A stretch of 64,000 nt of DNA. Origin: Tsukamurella conjunctivitidis. GTDB taxonomy: Bacteria > Actinomycetota > Actinomycetes > Mycobacteriales > Mycobacteriaceae. Where the stretch lies: positions 62,001-126,000 of the forward strand of contig NZ_VIGX01000003.1 in NCBI RefSeq assembly GCF_007858475.1. The letters run 5' to 3'. Both the position numbers and the translations under genes were made by a program. Below the pieces are notes generated by a model. It saw only the letters and a list, made by a program, of their open reading frames with translations. It was not told the DNA's origin and did not search any database. Shown one piece after another: positions 3,230 to 54,400 of the stretch (position 1 is its first letter; each line of letters opens with the position of its first letter).

Positions 3230-5396
<2,167 letters not shown>

Positions 5397-48063: not shown

Positions 48064-48069
48064 TATGGT
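48064..48069 (+). promoter_or_regulatory. -10 box TATGGT (leaderless type)
   Basis: TATGGT, then GAAGACC (7 bases), then the ATG at 48077. The box includes the alternative ATG at 48065, which it makes unlikely as a start. Confidence 0.4.
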
Positions 48070-48076
48070 GAAGACC

Positions 48077-48328
48077 ATGACCACCTACACCGCATCCTCG
48101 ACTTCCGACCGTCGCGCCGCCGCGCTGCGGTCCACCGTCGATGTTTTCGGTGTCGCGTGGCCCCGCTACAAGGCGGAGGCCCTGGTCGCCGCGTTGGTCG
48201 TGCTCGCGCTCGGCGCGGTCCTCACCCTCGCCACCGGCGCTGCCTCGTTCGCGCCCGCCGTGCTCGCCGCCACCGGCGTCGGCATCGCGGTGTGGTGGGC
48301 GGCGCGCGCCGTGCACGGTCGCGCCTAG
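48077..48328 (+). CDS. small two-helix membrane protein
   Basis: 83 residues, not recognised. A polar N-terminus (MTTYTASSTSDRRAAALRST) is followed by two predicted transmembrane helices (about 35-55 and 58-78) joined by a short turn, ending in basic residues. It is divergent from aroC. The ATG at 48077 is preferred over the ATG at 48065 because TATGGT (48064-48069) ends 7 bases before it, the leaderless layout. No function can be proposed. Confidence 0.65.
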   Translation: MTTYTASSTSDRRAAALRSTVDVFGVAWPRYKAEALVAALVVLALGAVLTLATGAASFAPAVLAATGVGIAVWWAARAVHGRA

Positions 48329-48379
48329 CCGACCCCGCGTGCGGCGGCCTGTGGACCCGCGCGCGCTCCGCGGGACCCC

Positions 48380-48409
48380 TTGCCCGCGCCTTCCCCGCGG
48401 ACGTACGGT
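48380..48409 (+). promoter_or_regulatory. candidate promoter of the MutS-like pair
   Basis: TTGCCC (48380-48385) and TACGGT (48404-48409) are 18 bases apart, about 85 bases before the first MutS-like gene, in the only gap available upstream of it. Confidence 0.35.
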
Positions 48410-48493
48410 CGAATGACCGGCGGTCCACGTGGGCGCCGCCGACACCACCCGCCGGTCCGGCCGTGACGACACGGGCGAGAGCGGAGGTGCGTT

Positions 48494-50008
48494 GTGAACT
48501 CCCCCTCTCTCCTCGGCACGCCCGCCGGCACCGTCCCCGAGCACGAGCCCGGATACTTCGCCGATCTGGGCCTGGACCGCATCGTCGACGCGGTCGCGGC
48601 CCACGACCCCGCGATCGTCCCCCTCTTCCGCTCCCGTGCCCCGACGGTGCCGGTCGCGCGGTATCGGCAGGACCTGTGCAGAGCCCTCCGGCGGGACGGC
48701 GACCTCGTCGCCGGGCTCCGGCGGTTCGGCGCGGCGATGGCCGAGATGCGCGCGGCCCGGTCGAACGCCGAGCGGCTGCGGCTGCGGCCCGAGTGCGACG
48801 CCTGGGCCCTGGACGGGGCCCGCCGCTACCTCGCCGCGGTCGCCGGGCTCCGTGAGACGCTCGCGGTCGTCGCGGACCCGCCCGCCGCGCTGAGCGACCT
48901 GCGCGCACACCTGGACACACTGATCGATTCGCCCGAGCATCGCGAGACGGCGCACGACGCGGCGGACGTGGCGGCGCAGCTGGCCGGCGTCGAGTACACC
49001 GTGCGGATCAAGAAGTCCGACGTCCGCGTGGGCCGCTACCAGGGAGAACCTGATTACGGCGCCGAGGTCGCGGCCGTCTTCGAGCGGTTCCGGGTCGACG
49101 GCGGTGCCCGCCGCGCGGAGGCCGCCCCCGTGCGGCCCGGTCTCGACGGTGTCGAGGCCGCCATCCTCACCGACGTCACCGCCCTGTTCCCCGACGCCTT
49201 CCGCGCGCTCGCCCGGTTCCGGGAGCGGCACGCCGGTGACGACGACCCGGTCCTGGCCCGCGTGGACCTCGAGATCCGCTGGTACCTGGGCTGTCTGGAC
49301 TTCATCGCCCGTCTGGAGGCGGCGGGGGTACCGTTCACGGTCCCGGCGATCGCCGACGGAACCGTCCTCGACGCGCACGGCACCGTGGACCTCGCGCTCG
49401 CGGCGGACCTGGTCCGGCGAGGCCTGCCGGTCGTGGGCAACGACCTCCGACTCGGCGCCGATGAGCGCGTGCTGGTGATCACCGGGCCCAATCACGGCGG
49501 GAAGACCGCGCTCGCCCGGGCGTTCGGCCAGATCCACCACCTGGCGGCGCTCGGGCTCCCCGTGCCGGGCACCGACGTCACCATCGGGCTCTTCGACGAG
49601 TTGTTCACCCAGTTCGAGCGGCCCGAATCCGCCGACGACCGGCGCGGCCGACTCGAGGCGGACATCGAGGGCATGCGCGCGATCCTGACCGCGGCGACCG
49701 GCCGGAGCGTGGTGGTGATGAACGAGACCTTCGCATCGACCTCCGTGGAGGACGGGGCGCGCCTCGGTGCCGCCGTCGTCGGCCGGCTGGTGGCGACCGG
49801 CGCGCGATGCGCCTACGTCACCTTCGTCGACGAGATCGCCCACCTCGGCGACGGGGTGGTGAGCATGACCGCCGACGTCCCCGTCGAGCCTTCTGCTCGA
49901 ACGTTCCGGGTGCGGCGCGGCCGGCCGCAGGGACTCGCCCACGCCGCGGCGCTCGCCCGCCGGCACGGACTCGACGCCGAGGCCTTGCGCCGGAGGATCG
50001 TGTCGTGA
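48494..50008 (+). CDS. MutS-family ATPase, first of a pair (no mismatch-binding domain)
   Basis: 504 residues, half the length of true MutS. The N-terminal half is helical and resembles the MutS core/lever region; there is no mismatch-recognition domain I. The C-terminal half (about 300-504) is a MutS ABC ATPase with Walker A G331-PNHGGKT (MutS: GPNMGGKST), Walker B VVVMNETFAST with Asn410-Glu411 where MutS has Asp-Glu, and FASTSVEDG matching the MutS signature. At the switch where MutS has Thr-His this protein has Thr443-Phe444. The GTG at 48494 has GGAGG 6 bases upstream. Its stop overlaps the next MutS-like gene, so the two probably form a heterodimer. Function unknown. Confidence 0.85.
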   Translation: MNSPSLLGTPAGTVPEHEPGYFADLGLDRIVDAVAAHDPAIVPLFRSRAPTVPVARYRQDLCRALRRDGDLVAGLRRFGAAMAEMRAARSNAERLRLRPECDAWALDGARRYLAAVAGLRETLAVVADPPAALSDLRAHLDTLIDSPEHRETAHDAADVAAQLAGVEYTVRIKKSDVRVGRYQGEPDYGAEVAAVFERFRVDGGARRAEAAPVRPGLDGVEAAILTDVTALFPDAFRALARFRERHAGDDDPVLARVDLEIRWYLGCLDFIARLEAAGVPFTVPAIADGTVLDAHGTVDLALAADLVRRGLPVVGNDLRLGADERVLVITGPNHGGKTALARAFGQIHHLAALGLPVPGTDVTIGLFDELFTQFERPESADDRRGRLEADIEGMRAILTAATGRSVVVMNETFASTSVEDGARLGAAVVGRLVATGARCAYVTFVDEIAHLGDGVVSMTADVPVEPSARTFRVRRGRPQGLAHAAALARRHGLDAEALRRRIVS

Positions 50009-51486
50009 GGACGCGCCTGCTCTACCGCGACCGGGACCTGCGGGAACCCCCTCAGGCTCCGCCGCGGTCCGAGGAACTGCGCCGGAACCTGGGACTGGAC
50101 CGGCTGCTCCCGGTCATGGCCTCCGGCGACGACGCCCTCTACCGCGTCGCGGAGACGATGCTCCTCGGCGACGTCGCCTCTGCCGACGATATCCGCTACC
50201 GCCACGAGGTCCTGCGGGACTGCCTCGCCCACCCGGACGCGGTCGACGACCTGCGGCGGATCGCGGTGCGCGCGGTCGAGCGGGAGCGCCACAACTACTT
50301 CGGGTTGTTCACCCGCGCCACGCCGGACAAGGTGCTGTACCGATCCCTCGACGTTCTCGACATGTTCCTGGGCGCCTTCACCGAGCTGCGTGCGGCCTGC
50401 GACCGGTGGCGCGGCGCCTTCTCGTCGGCGGGCTTCGACGCCTTCTTCTCGTGCATCGCCACCGACCTCGACGACGACTACCTCGCGGCGGTCCGGGAAC
50501 ACCTGGAGGGACTCCGCTTCGCGAAGGGCGAATTGATCAGCATGCGACTCGGAACCGGCGCGCACGGGACTGATCACGTCCTGCGCCACCCGGACCGCTC
50601 GGGGTGGCGCCGCCTGCGCGCGCGGGACGGCGCGATCGACCTCGACGTCGACGACCCCGCGGCCGCGGAGGCCCTGACCGTGCTGGCGGGCCGCGGTATC
50701 CGGACCGCGGCGGACGCCGTCGCGCAGGCCGCCGAGCACGTGGCCGCCTACTTCCGGACCATCGCCGACGAACTCGGCTTCTACCGCGCCGTGATGAACC
50801 TCCTCGCCGCCCTCGACGAGCGCGGCGCTCCGTGGTGCCTTCCGGAGCCGTCGGCGCGGGGACCGCTGTGCCACGGTCTCTACCATCCGGTGCTGGCTCT
50901 GGAGACGCGGGAACCGGTCGTCGGCAACGACATCGACACCGAGGGCGCGTCGGTCACGATCATCACCGGCGCCAACCACGGCGGGAAGACGACGCTGCTG
51001 CGGAGCATCGGCACGGCGCAGCTCATGTTCCGCTGCGGAATGCCGGTCCCGGCACGCGACTACCGCGGGCCCGTCCATCCTCAGGTCCTCACCCACTTCG
51101 GCGGCGAGGAGCGGGGAGGCGGCGACACCGCGGGGCGGCTGGAGGAGGAACTGGGCCGGATGAGCGCGGTCGCCGACGTGATCCGCCCGGGAGCGCTCCT
51201 GCTGTGCAACGAGTCGCTCGCCTCGACGAACGAGCGCGAGGGGGCGGCGCTGGCGCGGCAGATCGTGGAAACGATGCGGGACTGCGGGATCTCCGTCGTG
51301 TACGTGACGCACATGTACGAGCTCGCGCGCGGTCTCGCCGATGCGGGCGACCCGCGGCACGCCTTCCTGCGCGCGGAGCGCCTCCCCACCGGAGATCGCA
51401 CCTTCCGGATCCTGCCCGGCCGGCCCCTGCCCACGAGCCACGGCGAGGACCTGTTCCAGCGGATCTTCGGGAGCGCCGGGGTGTGA
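50005..51486 (+). CDS. MutS-family ATPase, second of a pair
   Basis: 493 residues. The layout is like its neighbour: a helical N-terminal part (about 20-290) with no mismatch-recognition domain, then a MutS-type ATPase. Walker A is G322-ANHGGKTTLL, Walker B is GALLLCNESLAST with Asn402-Glu403, and NEREGAAL corresponds to the MutS signature region. Unlike the first protein it keeps the switch His436 in YVTHMYEL. The GTG at 50005 overlaps the upstream stop (GTGA), so synthesis is coupled. It ends 5 bases before the convergent dnaE1. Roles in DNA transactions or in remodelling another complex are both open. Confidence 0.85.
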   Translation: MRTRLLYRDRDLREPPQAPPRSEELRRNLGLDRLLPVMASGDDALYRVAETMLLGDVASADDIRYRHEVLRDCLAHPDAVDDLRRIAVRAVERERHNYFGLFTRATPDKVLYRSLDVLDMFLGAFTELRAACDRWRGAFSSAGFDAFFSCIATDLDDDYLAAVREHLEGLRFAKGELISMRLGTGAHGTDHVLRHPDRSGWRRLRARDGAIDLDVDDPAAAEALTVLAGRGIRTAADAVAQAAEHVAAYFRTIADELGFYRAVMNLLAALDERGAPWCLPEPSARGPLCHGLYHPVLALETREPVVGNDIDTEGASVTIITGANHGGKTTLLRSIGTAQLMFRCGMPVPARDYRGPVHPQVLTHFGGEERGGGDTAGRLEEELGRMSAVADVIRPGALLLCNESLASTNEREGAALARQIVETMRDCGISVVYVTHMYELARGLADAGDPRHAFLRAERLPTGDRTFRILPGRPLPTSHGEDLFQRIFGSAGV

Positions 51487-51491
51487 TCGGG

Positions 51492-54400
51492 TCAGGCCAG
51501 GCAGTTCGGGCCGAGCAACGCCTTCAGGTCGCCCATCAGCGACGACGACGGGTTCACCCGGAGGGTGTCGTCGAGCCGCAGCGTGGTGGCCTTGTCGCCG
51601 CTGACGAGCTTGACGTGCACGTCCGAGACGCCGGGGTGACGCTGCAGCACCTGCTTGAGCGCGGAGACCTTGTCCTGCGTGCACACCCGGGTCTGCATCG
51701 TCAGTGACAGCGGCTTCGCCACACCGATCTGGGACAGGTCGATCGGCGCGATGTCGTTGGCGATCAGGGTGACCTTGTCGTCCCGGAAGTTCACGCGCGC
51801 CTTGATGAGCACCACCGCGTCCTCGACGACCTCGGCGCCGTACGCGGCGTAGGCCTGCGGGAAGAAGAACACCTCGATACCACCCGAGAGGTCCTCGATC
51901 TGCGCTGAAGCGAAGGGCGCGCCGTTCTTGTTCACGCGCCGGTTCACGGACTGCAGGATGCCGCCGACGGTGACCTGGGTGCCGTCCTTGACGTCGCCCT
52001 CCACGATGGCCGGGATGGCGGTGTCGGTCTGCGCGGCGATGACGTGCTCGACACCGTCGAGCGGGTGCGCGGAGACGTACAGCCCCAGCATCTCCCGTTC
52101 GAGGGCGAGTTTGTGCTTGCCGTCCCATTCCTCGTCGGGGACCTTGATCGTGAAGACGTCGTCGATCGGACCGGCGGCACCGTCCTCCTCGCCCATCGAT
52201 CCGAAGAGATCGAACTGGCCCACGGCCTCGGCCTTCTTGGTGGACAGGACCGACTCGATCGCGTCGGCGTGCACCAGCAGCAGGCCCTTGCGGGGATGGT
52301 CGAGCGAGTCGAAACCGCCCGCCTTGATGAGGGATTCGGTGACCTTCTTGGAACAGGCCGCGACCTCGATCTTGGCGAGGTAATCCGAGAAGGAGGTGAA
52401 GTTCCCCTTCTCCGTGCGGGTGTTCACGATGGACGCGACCACGCCCTCACCGACGTTGCGCACCGACCCCATGCCGAATCGGATGTCCTCGCCCACCGAG
52501 GTGAAGGCGTGGAAGGACTCGTTGACGTCCGGCGGGAGGACGGTGATGCCGAGGCGGCGGCAGTCACCGAGGTAGATGGCGGCCTTGTCCTTGTCGTCGC
52601 CGACGGAGGTGAGCAGCGCGGCCATGTACTCGGCCGGGTAGTTCGCCTTGAGGTAGGCGGTCCAGTAGGAGACCAGGCCGTAGGCGGCGGCGTGCGACTT
52701 GTTGAACGCGTAACCCGCGAAGGGCAGCACCGTCTCCCACAGTGCGGTGATCGCGGCCTGGGAGAAGCCGTTGTCGAGCATGCCCTGCTGGAAGCCGCCG
52801 TACGCTTCGTCGAGGACCTCCTTCTTCTTCTTGCCCATCGCGCGCCGCAGGATGTCGGCCTGTCCGAGGCTGTACCCGGCGACCTTCTGCGCGATCTGCA
52901 TGATCTGCTCCTGGAACACGATCAGGCCGAACGTGTCCGCGAGGATCTCCTTGAGCGGCTCCTCGAGCTCCGGATGGATCGGCTTGACCTGTTGCCGGCC
53001 GTTCTTGCGATCCGCGTAGTCGTTGTGCGCGTTCATGCCCATCGGGCCGGGTCGGTACAGGGCGCCGACGGCCACGATGTCCTCGAACTTGGTCGGCTGC
53101 ATGCGGCGCAGGAGGTCGCGCATCGGCCCGCCGTCGAGCTGGAAGACGCCGAGGGTGTTGCCCCGCTGCAGCAGCTCGTACGTGGTCTCGTCGTCGAGTG
53201 GGAGCTGGTCCATGTCCAGCTCGACACCGCGGTTGTGCTTGATGTTGTCCAGCGCGTCACCGATGACGGTGAGGTTGCGCAGGCCCAGGAAGTCCATCTT
53301 CAGCAGGCCGATGGCCTCGCACGACGGGTAGTCCCAACCGGTGATGATCGCGCCGTCCTGCGCACGCTTCCACACCGGGATCGCGTCGGTGAGCGGATCA
53401 CAGGACATGATCACCGCGCAGGCGTGCACGCCGGCGTTGCGGATCAGGCCCTCGAGCCCGAGCGCCATGTCGTAGATCTTCTTGACATCCGGATCGGTCT
53501 CGATCAGCTGCCGGACCTCGACGGCCTCCTTGTACCGCTCGTGCTCCGGGTCGGTGATGCCCTTGACCGAGATGTCCTTGGCCATGATGGGCGGCGGGAG
53601 CGCCTTGGTGATGCGGTCGGCGATCGAGTAACCGGGCTGGCCGTAGATGACGCGGGCCGAGTCCTTGATGGCGGCCTTCGTCTTGATGGTGCCGAACGTG
53701 ATGACCTGGGCCACCTTGTCGGAGCCCCACTTCTCCGAGGCGTAGGTGATCATCTCCCCGCGGCGGCGATCGTCGAAGTCGATGTCGATATCGGGCATCG
53801 AGACGCGCTCGGGGTTGAGGAACCGCTCGAACAGCAGGCCGTGCGGGATCGGGTCGATGTTGGTGATGCCCAGCGCCCACGCCACGAGCGAGCCTGCGGC
53901 GGAACCACGGCCCGGACCCACGCGGATGCCGACCTCGTGCGCGTGCGCGATCAGGTCGCCGACGACGAGGAAGTACGCCGGGAAACCCATCTCGTTGATG
54001 ACCGAGAGCTCGTACTTCGCCCGCTCGACGTAGTCCTCCGGCGGACCGTCGGGGAAGCGGCGGTTCAGCCCGTCCATCACCTCGGACTCGAGGAAGGACT
54101 CCTGCGTGTGGTTCTCCGGTACGGGGAACCGGGGCATCCGGTCCTTGTGCTCCCACACCTCGGCGTAGGACTGGACGCGCTCGCCGATCTCCACCGTCGA
54201 ATCGCACGCGCCCGGCACCTGCGAATCCCAGAGTTCCCGCATCTCCTGCGCGGACTTGAGGTAGTAGCCGTCACCGTCGAACTGGAAACGCGTGGGATCG
54301 GACAGCGTCTTGCCGGTCTGGATGCACAGCAGCGCGCCGTGCGACTCGGCCTTGTCCTTGGTGACGTAATGGCAGTCGTTCGTGGCCAGCGGCTTGATGC

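Follow-up and report, generated by a model that had tools for sequence, protein, structure and literature searches.

A coupled pair of MutS-core ATPases in Tsukamurella conjunctivitidis belongs to a widespread family linked to fluoride riboswitches

The gene pair described here lies in a stretch of 64,000 nucleotides, hereafter the window, from Tsukamurella conjunctivitidis (contig NZ_VIGX01000003.1, positions 62,001 to 126,000). The first open reading frame (ORF), ORF1, is found at 48494-50008 on the plus strand and encodes the first subunit of 504 residues, while ORF2, at 50005-51486 on the same strand, encodes the second subunit of 493 residues. Both start with GTG, and they overlap in a GTGA junction. 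The stop codon of ORF2 ends at 51486 and the convergent dnaE1 on the minus strand starts at 51492, leaving a gap of 5 bases. These coordinates confirm the original prediction, a note that had described two coupled MutS-type genes ending next to dnaE1. The neighbours of the pair in the window are aroC, a small ORF and dnaE1. Here, we describe the two proteins and the family they belong to, whose members elsewhere are linked to fluoride riboswitches and fluoride-resistance genes.

In each protein, MutS_V is the only Pfam match above the cut-off of 30.2 bits, with 59.5 bits at residues 327-453 of ORF1 and 42 bits at residues 319-442 of ORF2. Neither MutS_I-IV nor Smr gives a match in either protein at E<=1, and the NCBIfam matches to MutS2, MutS and KamC are below threshold. 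ORF1 and ORF2 are full-length paralogues, aligned by hhalign with a probability of 100 over 443 columns, i.e. nearly the whole length. The best structural matches of both models, obtained with VIA-align, are MutS-beta, MutS-alpha, MutS and MutS2, and the fold is that of a MutS core, a lever half and a MutS_V ATPase. In the structural comparison ORF2 is aligned to the listed E. coli MutS chains from residues 262-266, and for ORF1 the alignment starts at 259-270 in some rows and at 82-171 in others. These starting points are no clean indication of missing domains, so we base the absence of domain I on Pfam and protein length. The predicted layout, a helical half plus a MutS-type ATPase without domain I, is thus borne out by the profile and structure searches, and an Smr domain is not seen either. 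In the own genome, ORF1 and ORF2 are the only two MutS_V places, and NucS is present (145 bits), so that a MutS-like pair is indeed unexpected here.

Motif conservation was counted in alignments of ORF1 and ORF2 with 66 rows, which exclude L040, L042, L088, L100, L105, L111 and any locus lacking a complete copy of either gene (L numbers denote loci). All motif positions are on the plus strand. The Walker A motif of ORF1, GPNHGGKT (residues 331-338, positions 49484-49507), has G331, N333, G336 and K337 in 66/66 rows, and that of ORF2, GANHGGKT (residues 322-329, positions 50968-50991), has G322, N324, G326, G327 and K328 in all 66. Walker B is Asn-Glu in both proteins: N410-E411 in ORF1 (49721-49726; both residues in 66/66 rows) and N402-E403 in ORF2 (51208-51213; Asn in 65 rows, Glu in 66). 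The consensus of the canonical MutS controls is ILDE, i.e. Asp where ORF1 has Asn. We take Asp693 of E. coli MutS to be the residue matching the Walker B Asn of ORF1 and ORF2, and the structure of a D693N mutant is among the listed structural matches. Where the Thr-His switch would be, ORF1 has V-T-F (residues 442-444, 49817-49825; V442 and F444 in 66/66 rows, T443 in 64/66), while ORF2 retains the His in V-T-H (residues 434-436, 51304-51312; V434, T435 and H436 in 66/66). The two subunits are therefore asymmetric: they share the Walker B residues, but at the switch position ORF1 carries Phe and ORF2 His. Compared with three other Tsukamurella copies the ratio of non-synonymous to synonymous substitution rates (dN/dS) is ~0.13-0.38, i.e. 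the genes are under purifying selection. Due to this ratio and the intact catalytic motifs, the pair is not a chance occurrence.

The pair is present in 12 out of 61 genomes (the own genome and 60 relatives), and in 12/12 of these ORF2 adjoins ORF1. Two copies are interrupted, one by an inner stop in ORF1 in T. pseudospumae (L033/L042) and one by a frame shift near the start of ORF2 in Tsukamurella sp. PLM1 (L030/L040); each is either decay or a sequencing error. The expectation that the two genes are conserved together is therefore correct, and a heterodimer is the most simple reading of two subunits kept together, although we infer their association. Across the window's order the pair is rare (7/298 genomes). 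Outside the order it is widespread, with at least 576 stretches confirmed as ORF2 relatives. The best 80 of these were picked by ORF2 similarity, blind to context. Both genes are complete in 70/80 loci, and the 4-base overlap is common to 61/71 gene pairs, where the other ten include incomplete contigs and broken frames. An ORF2 relative is also found in 48 plasmid records, many of them from Enterobacteriaceae, and 10 of the 20 plasmid records listed carry the annotation "DNA mismatch repair protein".

Rfam was run on ten pair loci and returned 24 matches in 9/10 of them, all to the fluoride riboswitch RF01734. A covariance model, R1, was built from 23 of these matches and used at a threshold of E<=0.01. 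It was applied to 79 loci, from which three of close Tsukamurella (L040, L042, L043) were excluded and to which L037 and L038 were added. The set includes near-duplicates (L061/L065, L049/L054, L085/L098) and two pairs on one contig (L051, L100), and short contigs are counted as misses. According to R1, a riboswitch is present in 53/79 loci from many phyla, nine of which supplied the model and hence match by construction; among L046-L119 the count is 52/74. In 33/79 loci the riboswitch is directly upstream of ORF1 on the same strand, i.e. its end lies between -350 and +300 bases from the 5' limit of the open frame. In L085 and L098 the same upstream arrangement is apparent inside an over-long frame. 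Rfam searches covered 30 of these 79 loci (including L044) and 14 later ones, and the figures for the other 49 are those of R1. The model is conservative, missing an upstream-gene site in L060 and a second site in L037 that are both seen by Rfam. On the actinomycete contig PMSW01000120.1 (L051, L100) the two copies of the pair are inverted, and each has its own upstream fluoride riboswitch.

The control sample comes from a KamC-family search that took no account of fluoride; among 149 Actinomycetota genomes it returned pair loci as well as loci with canonical MutS. Eleven of the 12 canonical MutS loci with ids were taken into the control (L150-L160). Domains I-V are found by Pfam in 10/11, and the eleventh, L160, aligned with the others; from alignment and Pfam these loci are canonical MutS, and MutS2 is ruled out. 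A riboswitch is found by Rfam and R1 in 6/7 Actinomycetota pair loci, compared with 0/11 canonical MutS loci by R1 and 0/8 of them by Rfam. The 6/7 versus 0/11 split would have a chance of ~4 in 10,000 if the loci were independent; however, a single family accounts for five of the seven pair loci and a single genus for three, so the contrast does not stand for seven independent events. Five genomes contain both a canonical MutS and the pair, and there a riboswitch is seen at 5/5 pair loci and at 0/5 MutS loci. Taken together, the two comparisons indicate that the riboswitch link is specific to the pair and not a property of MutS genes generally. As both kinds occur in these five genomes, the pair is no stand-in for a missing MutS there.

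Neighbour genes were clustered over the 79 loci and counted in 74 of them within a range of ~10 kb, with Pfam names for ten representatives. The most frequent is enolase (21/74), followed by a dynamin-like GTPase (20/74), an MFS family (16/74), DUF190 (13/74), a Na+/H+ exchanger (12/74), UspA and CrcB (11/74 each), pyrophosphatase (5/74) and formate-hydrogenlyase-type subunits (4-5 each). In 62/74 loci there is a riboswitch or a core gene, MFS not counted. Other members of the regulon are exporters of fluoride, substitutes for or second copies of inhibited enzymes, or proteins that handle phosphate. The link of the family to riboswitches and resistance genes is a direct observation, and at the level of the family we have little doubt that the pair is a fluoride-stress module. 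Clusters of dynamin-like GTPases, DUF190 and MFS proteins (e.g. L054 3682-5520, L104 4850-5251, L096 5186-6475) recur near the pair, and their roles in fluoride stress seem to merit separate study.

Two plasmids illustrate the arrangement, each with the pair inside a fluoride island. In Rhodococcus qingshengii the order is metallophosphoesterase, pair, PAP2 phosphatase, MFS, eno, crcB, crcB and usp, and a riboswitch lies at the two crcB genes. In Citrobacter it is riboswitch, antiporter, USP and pair, then P-type ATPase, crcB, phosphoglycerate mutase, eno and usp. A similar order of cation ATPase, crcB, phosphoglycerate mutase, eno and usp is reported for the island GI3 of Enterobacter cloacae FRM, which has a Mn-dependent pyrophosphatase where the Citrobacter plasmid has a DHHA2 protein (PMC5533749). 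In FRM, fluoride induces a six-gene operon 8- to 177-fold, and high fluoride resistance depends on this operon; the strain grows at 4,000 mg/L, but once the operon is deleted the minimum inhibitory concentration of fluoride falls to 1,500 mg/L (PMC5533749). In contrast to the Citrobacter plasmid, the published GI3 table names no MutS pair (PMC5533749).

In the window, the pair forms an accessory cassette (48327-51491, no strand assigned) between the small ORF, which ends at 48328, and dnaE1. Relatives have an empty site: in 6/7 pair-less Tsukamurella genomes the homology to the window halts at 48307-48326 and resumes at 51489-51499, and the seventh (L186) matches on the dnaE1 side only. The small ORF just upstream of the cassette (48065-48328, plus strand, 87 residues) has homologues in six other Tsukamurella loci at the site. 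Two Tsukamurella species have two extra genes at the aroC-dnaE1 site, upstream of the pair (L031 7859-9731 and L033 8024-9717), which may mark a small hot spot for insertions. One copy from the same genus (G007, L035) sits at another site. In a FastTree phylogeny Tsukamurella falls within a ten-member clade with a support of 0.94, and its branch is long. Two records need a comment. L187 (NZ_LR134460.1, "plasmid 18" of Tsukamurella tyrosinosolvens) carries aroB, aroC, dnaE and the pair in chromosomal order and is probably a mislabelled piece of the chromosome. L045 is titled Acidobacteriaceae bacterium BOG_194, yet its pair is 51-61% identical to that of the window and genome G006, which has a contig of the same size (4,197 bases), is placed in the window's genus; this record is mislabelled or contaminated.

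We propose that the pair is an obligate heterodimeric MutS-core ATPase of a widespread fluoride-response family, which does not recognise mismatches and may remodel proteins blocked by fluoride. As a whole this is a tentative proposal, with chances a little short of even. A remodeller of blocked proteins would be the best fit for a MutS-core motor that lacks the mismatch-reading part and is accompanied, in the family, by regulon partners acting on fluoride, on inhibited enzymes or on phosphate, and NCBIfam already labels one MutS-like ATPase, KamC, as an enzyme reactivase. The lack of domain I and of Smr, the presence of NucS and the five genomes with both canonical MutS and the pair point to a role away from DNA. 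A two-subunit clamp would open and close, driven by ATP, and its motion would remodel protein targets. Enzymes such as enolase and pyrophosphatase, locked by Mg2+, fluoride and phosphate, could be set free in this way. The change from Asp to Asn in both Walker B motifs might, speculatively, protect the Mg-nucleotide site of the pair itself against fluoride trapping. A more specific version, in which the MutS-fold heterodimer spends ATP to extract fluoride-locked Mg-phosphate complexes from enolase, pyrophosphatase and similar enzymes, protects itself by the Walker B Asn and is in Tsukamurella under different control, is doubtful. As riboswitches and fluoride neighbours are both missing from the Tsukamurella loci, kinship is what makes a fluoride-stress role probable for the window copy. 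We set this lower than the estimate for the family because control and neighbours differ in Tsukamurella.

Several observations weigh against the proposal, beginning with the window itself. No fluoride riboswitch is found there by Rfam, also with filters off (best 3.1 bits), none is above cut-off among the 150 out of 615 candidates scored in the own genome, and R1 at E<=1 finds none in the window or in 13 further loci, mostly Tsukamurella. We also considered whether a degenerate riboswitch might precede the pair in the window, and neither Rfam nor R1 showed one. Neither the window (64 kb) nor the Tsukamurella loci contain a homologue of the fluoride-regulon representatives. Of the ten members of the Tsukamurella clade, L037 and L099 alone have riboswitches, and the function may therefore have drifted. 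In the wider set, 12/74 loci lack both a core gene and a riboswitch at E<=0.01; in these Rfam finds a riboswitch in L060 only, and several are contigs of less than 6 kb. Enolase is near the pair in just the 21 loci counted above. The pair is not essential to resistance, as FRM is strongly resistant and its island table does not list it (PMC5533749). CrcB is present in 60/61 relatives, with or without the pair, and being nearly universal its co-occurrence is uninformative as a test. To this comes the bias of the control sample towards one family.

Closer to the window, Mycobacterium kyorinense (L073), which is of the same order, has a riboswitch directly upstream of the pair, and so does L176, also of this order, at 57 bits. 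L037 has two riboswitches in the locus, on the other strand and together with hydrogenase-type genes. No riboswitch was found in L038, L177, L178, L179 and the Tsukamurella loci. It is accordingly conceivable, if unlikely, that the family serves in fluoride stress but the riboswitch-less Tsukamurella lineage has been repurposed for another client. The lack of riboswitches and fluoride neighbours, the long branch and the patchy presence at a fixed site would all agree with this, but the genes are under purifying selection with intact motifs, and the fluoride context is kept in the Rhodococcus, Mycobacterium and L037 relatives.

The remaining alternatives concern the target. The pair could clamp DNA by the lever ends, as MutS does, and handle DNA damage that fluoride causes indirectly. 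The MutS fold, with MutS-beta, MutS-alpha, MutS and MutS2 as best structural matches, and the publication of crcB-linked mutS as DNA repair (PMC2864571) speak for this reading. Against it, no Pfam match to domains I-IV is found where canonical controls show all five domains, and DNA-repair genes are not prominent among the recurrent neighbour clusters inspected. We think it unlikely, although the lever tips may still bind DNA. The isoelectric point, considered as a hint of DNA binding, is uninformative, as canonical MutS is acidic too. Replacement of mismatch repair was rejected given the presence of NucS and the absence of domain I. A role on stalled or fluoride-poisoned ribosomes, similar to MutS2, is suggested by the shared core fold and by a sequence search of solved structures, in which the ribosome-bound B. 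subtilis MutS2 ranks first for both proteins. It is very unlikely, since Smr is not matched in either protein and the models match no more than residues 1-511 of MutS2, i.e. the further C-terminal part of MutS2 is missing from the pair. Finally, the NCBIfam KamC model (NF052383) matches both proteins with 45 and 59.1 bits, which would suggest a reactivating ATPase of the B12-dependent lysine 5,6-aminomutase. These scores are far below the 300-bit cut-off, and a canonical MutS reaches 208 bits. The aminomutase alpha subunit (PF09043) is absent from 11/12 pair-bearing genomes, including the own genome, and 4/6 aminomutase loci were examined, none with a MutS-like gene of the pair's kind. With the aminomutase absent and the model fitting canonical MutS better, a KamB/KamC-type reactivase is highly improbable and was rejected. 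Phage defence was also rejected: PADLOC gives no match for ORF1 and only short P-loop matches for ORF2, the best with E 8.2e-5 over 37 residues.

Overall, the interpretation in the original prediction is partly supported. Of the two functions it suggested, a remodelling ATPase remains the best guess, while nothing apart from the fold speaks for a DNA-structure sensor. The survey of gene neighbourhoods it proposed found the pair kept together. That homologues elsewhere belong to the fluoride regulon lay outside its view. The pair had also been called a candidate for an undescribed system. In a search limited to open-licence papers no account of the pair's anatomy or of its asymmetry was found, but mutS behind the crcB motif was named in 2010 (PMC2864571). 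Fluoride sensors and exporters are known equipment of bacteria. If the proposal is true, the MutS fold would be extended from DNA to protein remodelling, which bears on fluoride tolerance in microbes degrading or making organofluorines.

Among known systems, KamC (NF052383, 508 positions) is similar by its NCBIfam label alone, as a MutS-like ATPase acting on an enzyme and not on DNA; the pair is far below the family cut-off and its host lacks lysine 5,6-aminomutase. Canonical MutS (MutS1, MSH2/MSH3/MSH6) shares the lever and ATPase fold, and the heterodimer principle is that of MSH2-MSH3. However, the pair has no domain I, whereas ten controls all show MutS_I, and the surroundings differ in the five genomes that contain both. 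MutS2 also has a core of lever and ATPase, but the pair is made of two different subunits without Smr, with Asn-Glu in Walker B and, in ORF1, Phe for the switch His. The pair scores 72.1 and 73.9 bits with the MutS2 model TIGR01069, compared with a cut-off of 400 bits.

The closest likeness is to the crcB-linked mutS of Weinberg et al. (2010), where the crcB motif precedes genes "involved in DNA repair (mutS)" (PMC2864571). DNA repair proteins are repeated as a riboswitch-linked class elsewhere (PMC7266159), and a term search for MutS in a 2024 review gave no hit (PMC11139923). As in the 2010 paper, MutS-type genes are found here directly behind fluoride riboswitches, and the pair very probably belongs to the same family. 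The difference is that mutS was listed there as a single DNA-repair gene (PMC2864571), while we find a coupled pair without domain I, whose copy in the window has no riboswitch. The "mutS, DNA repair" part of the fluoride regulon is in this way recast as a testable two-gene pair without the mismatch-reading domain.

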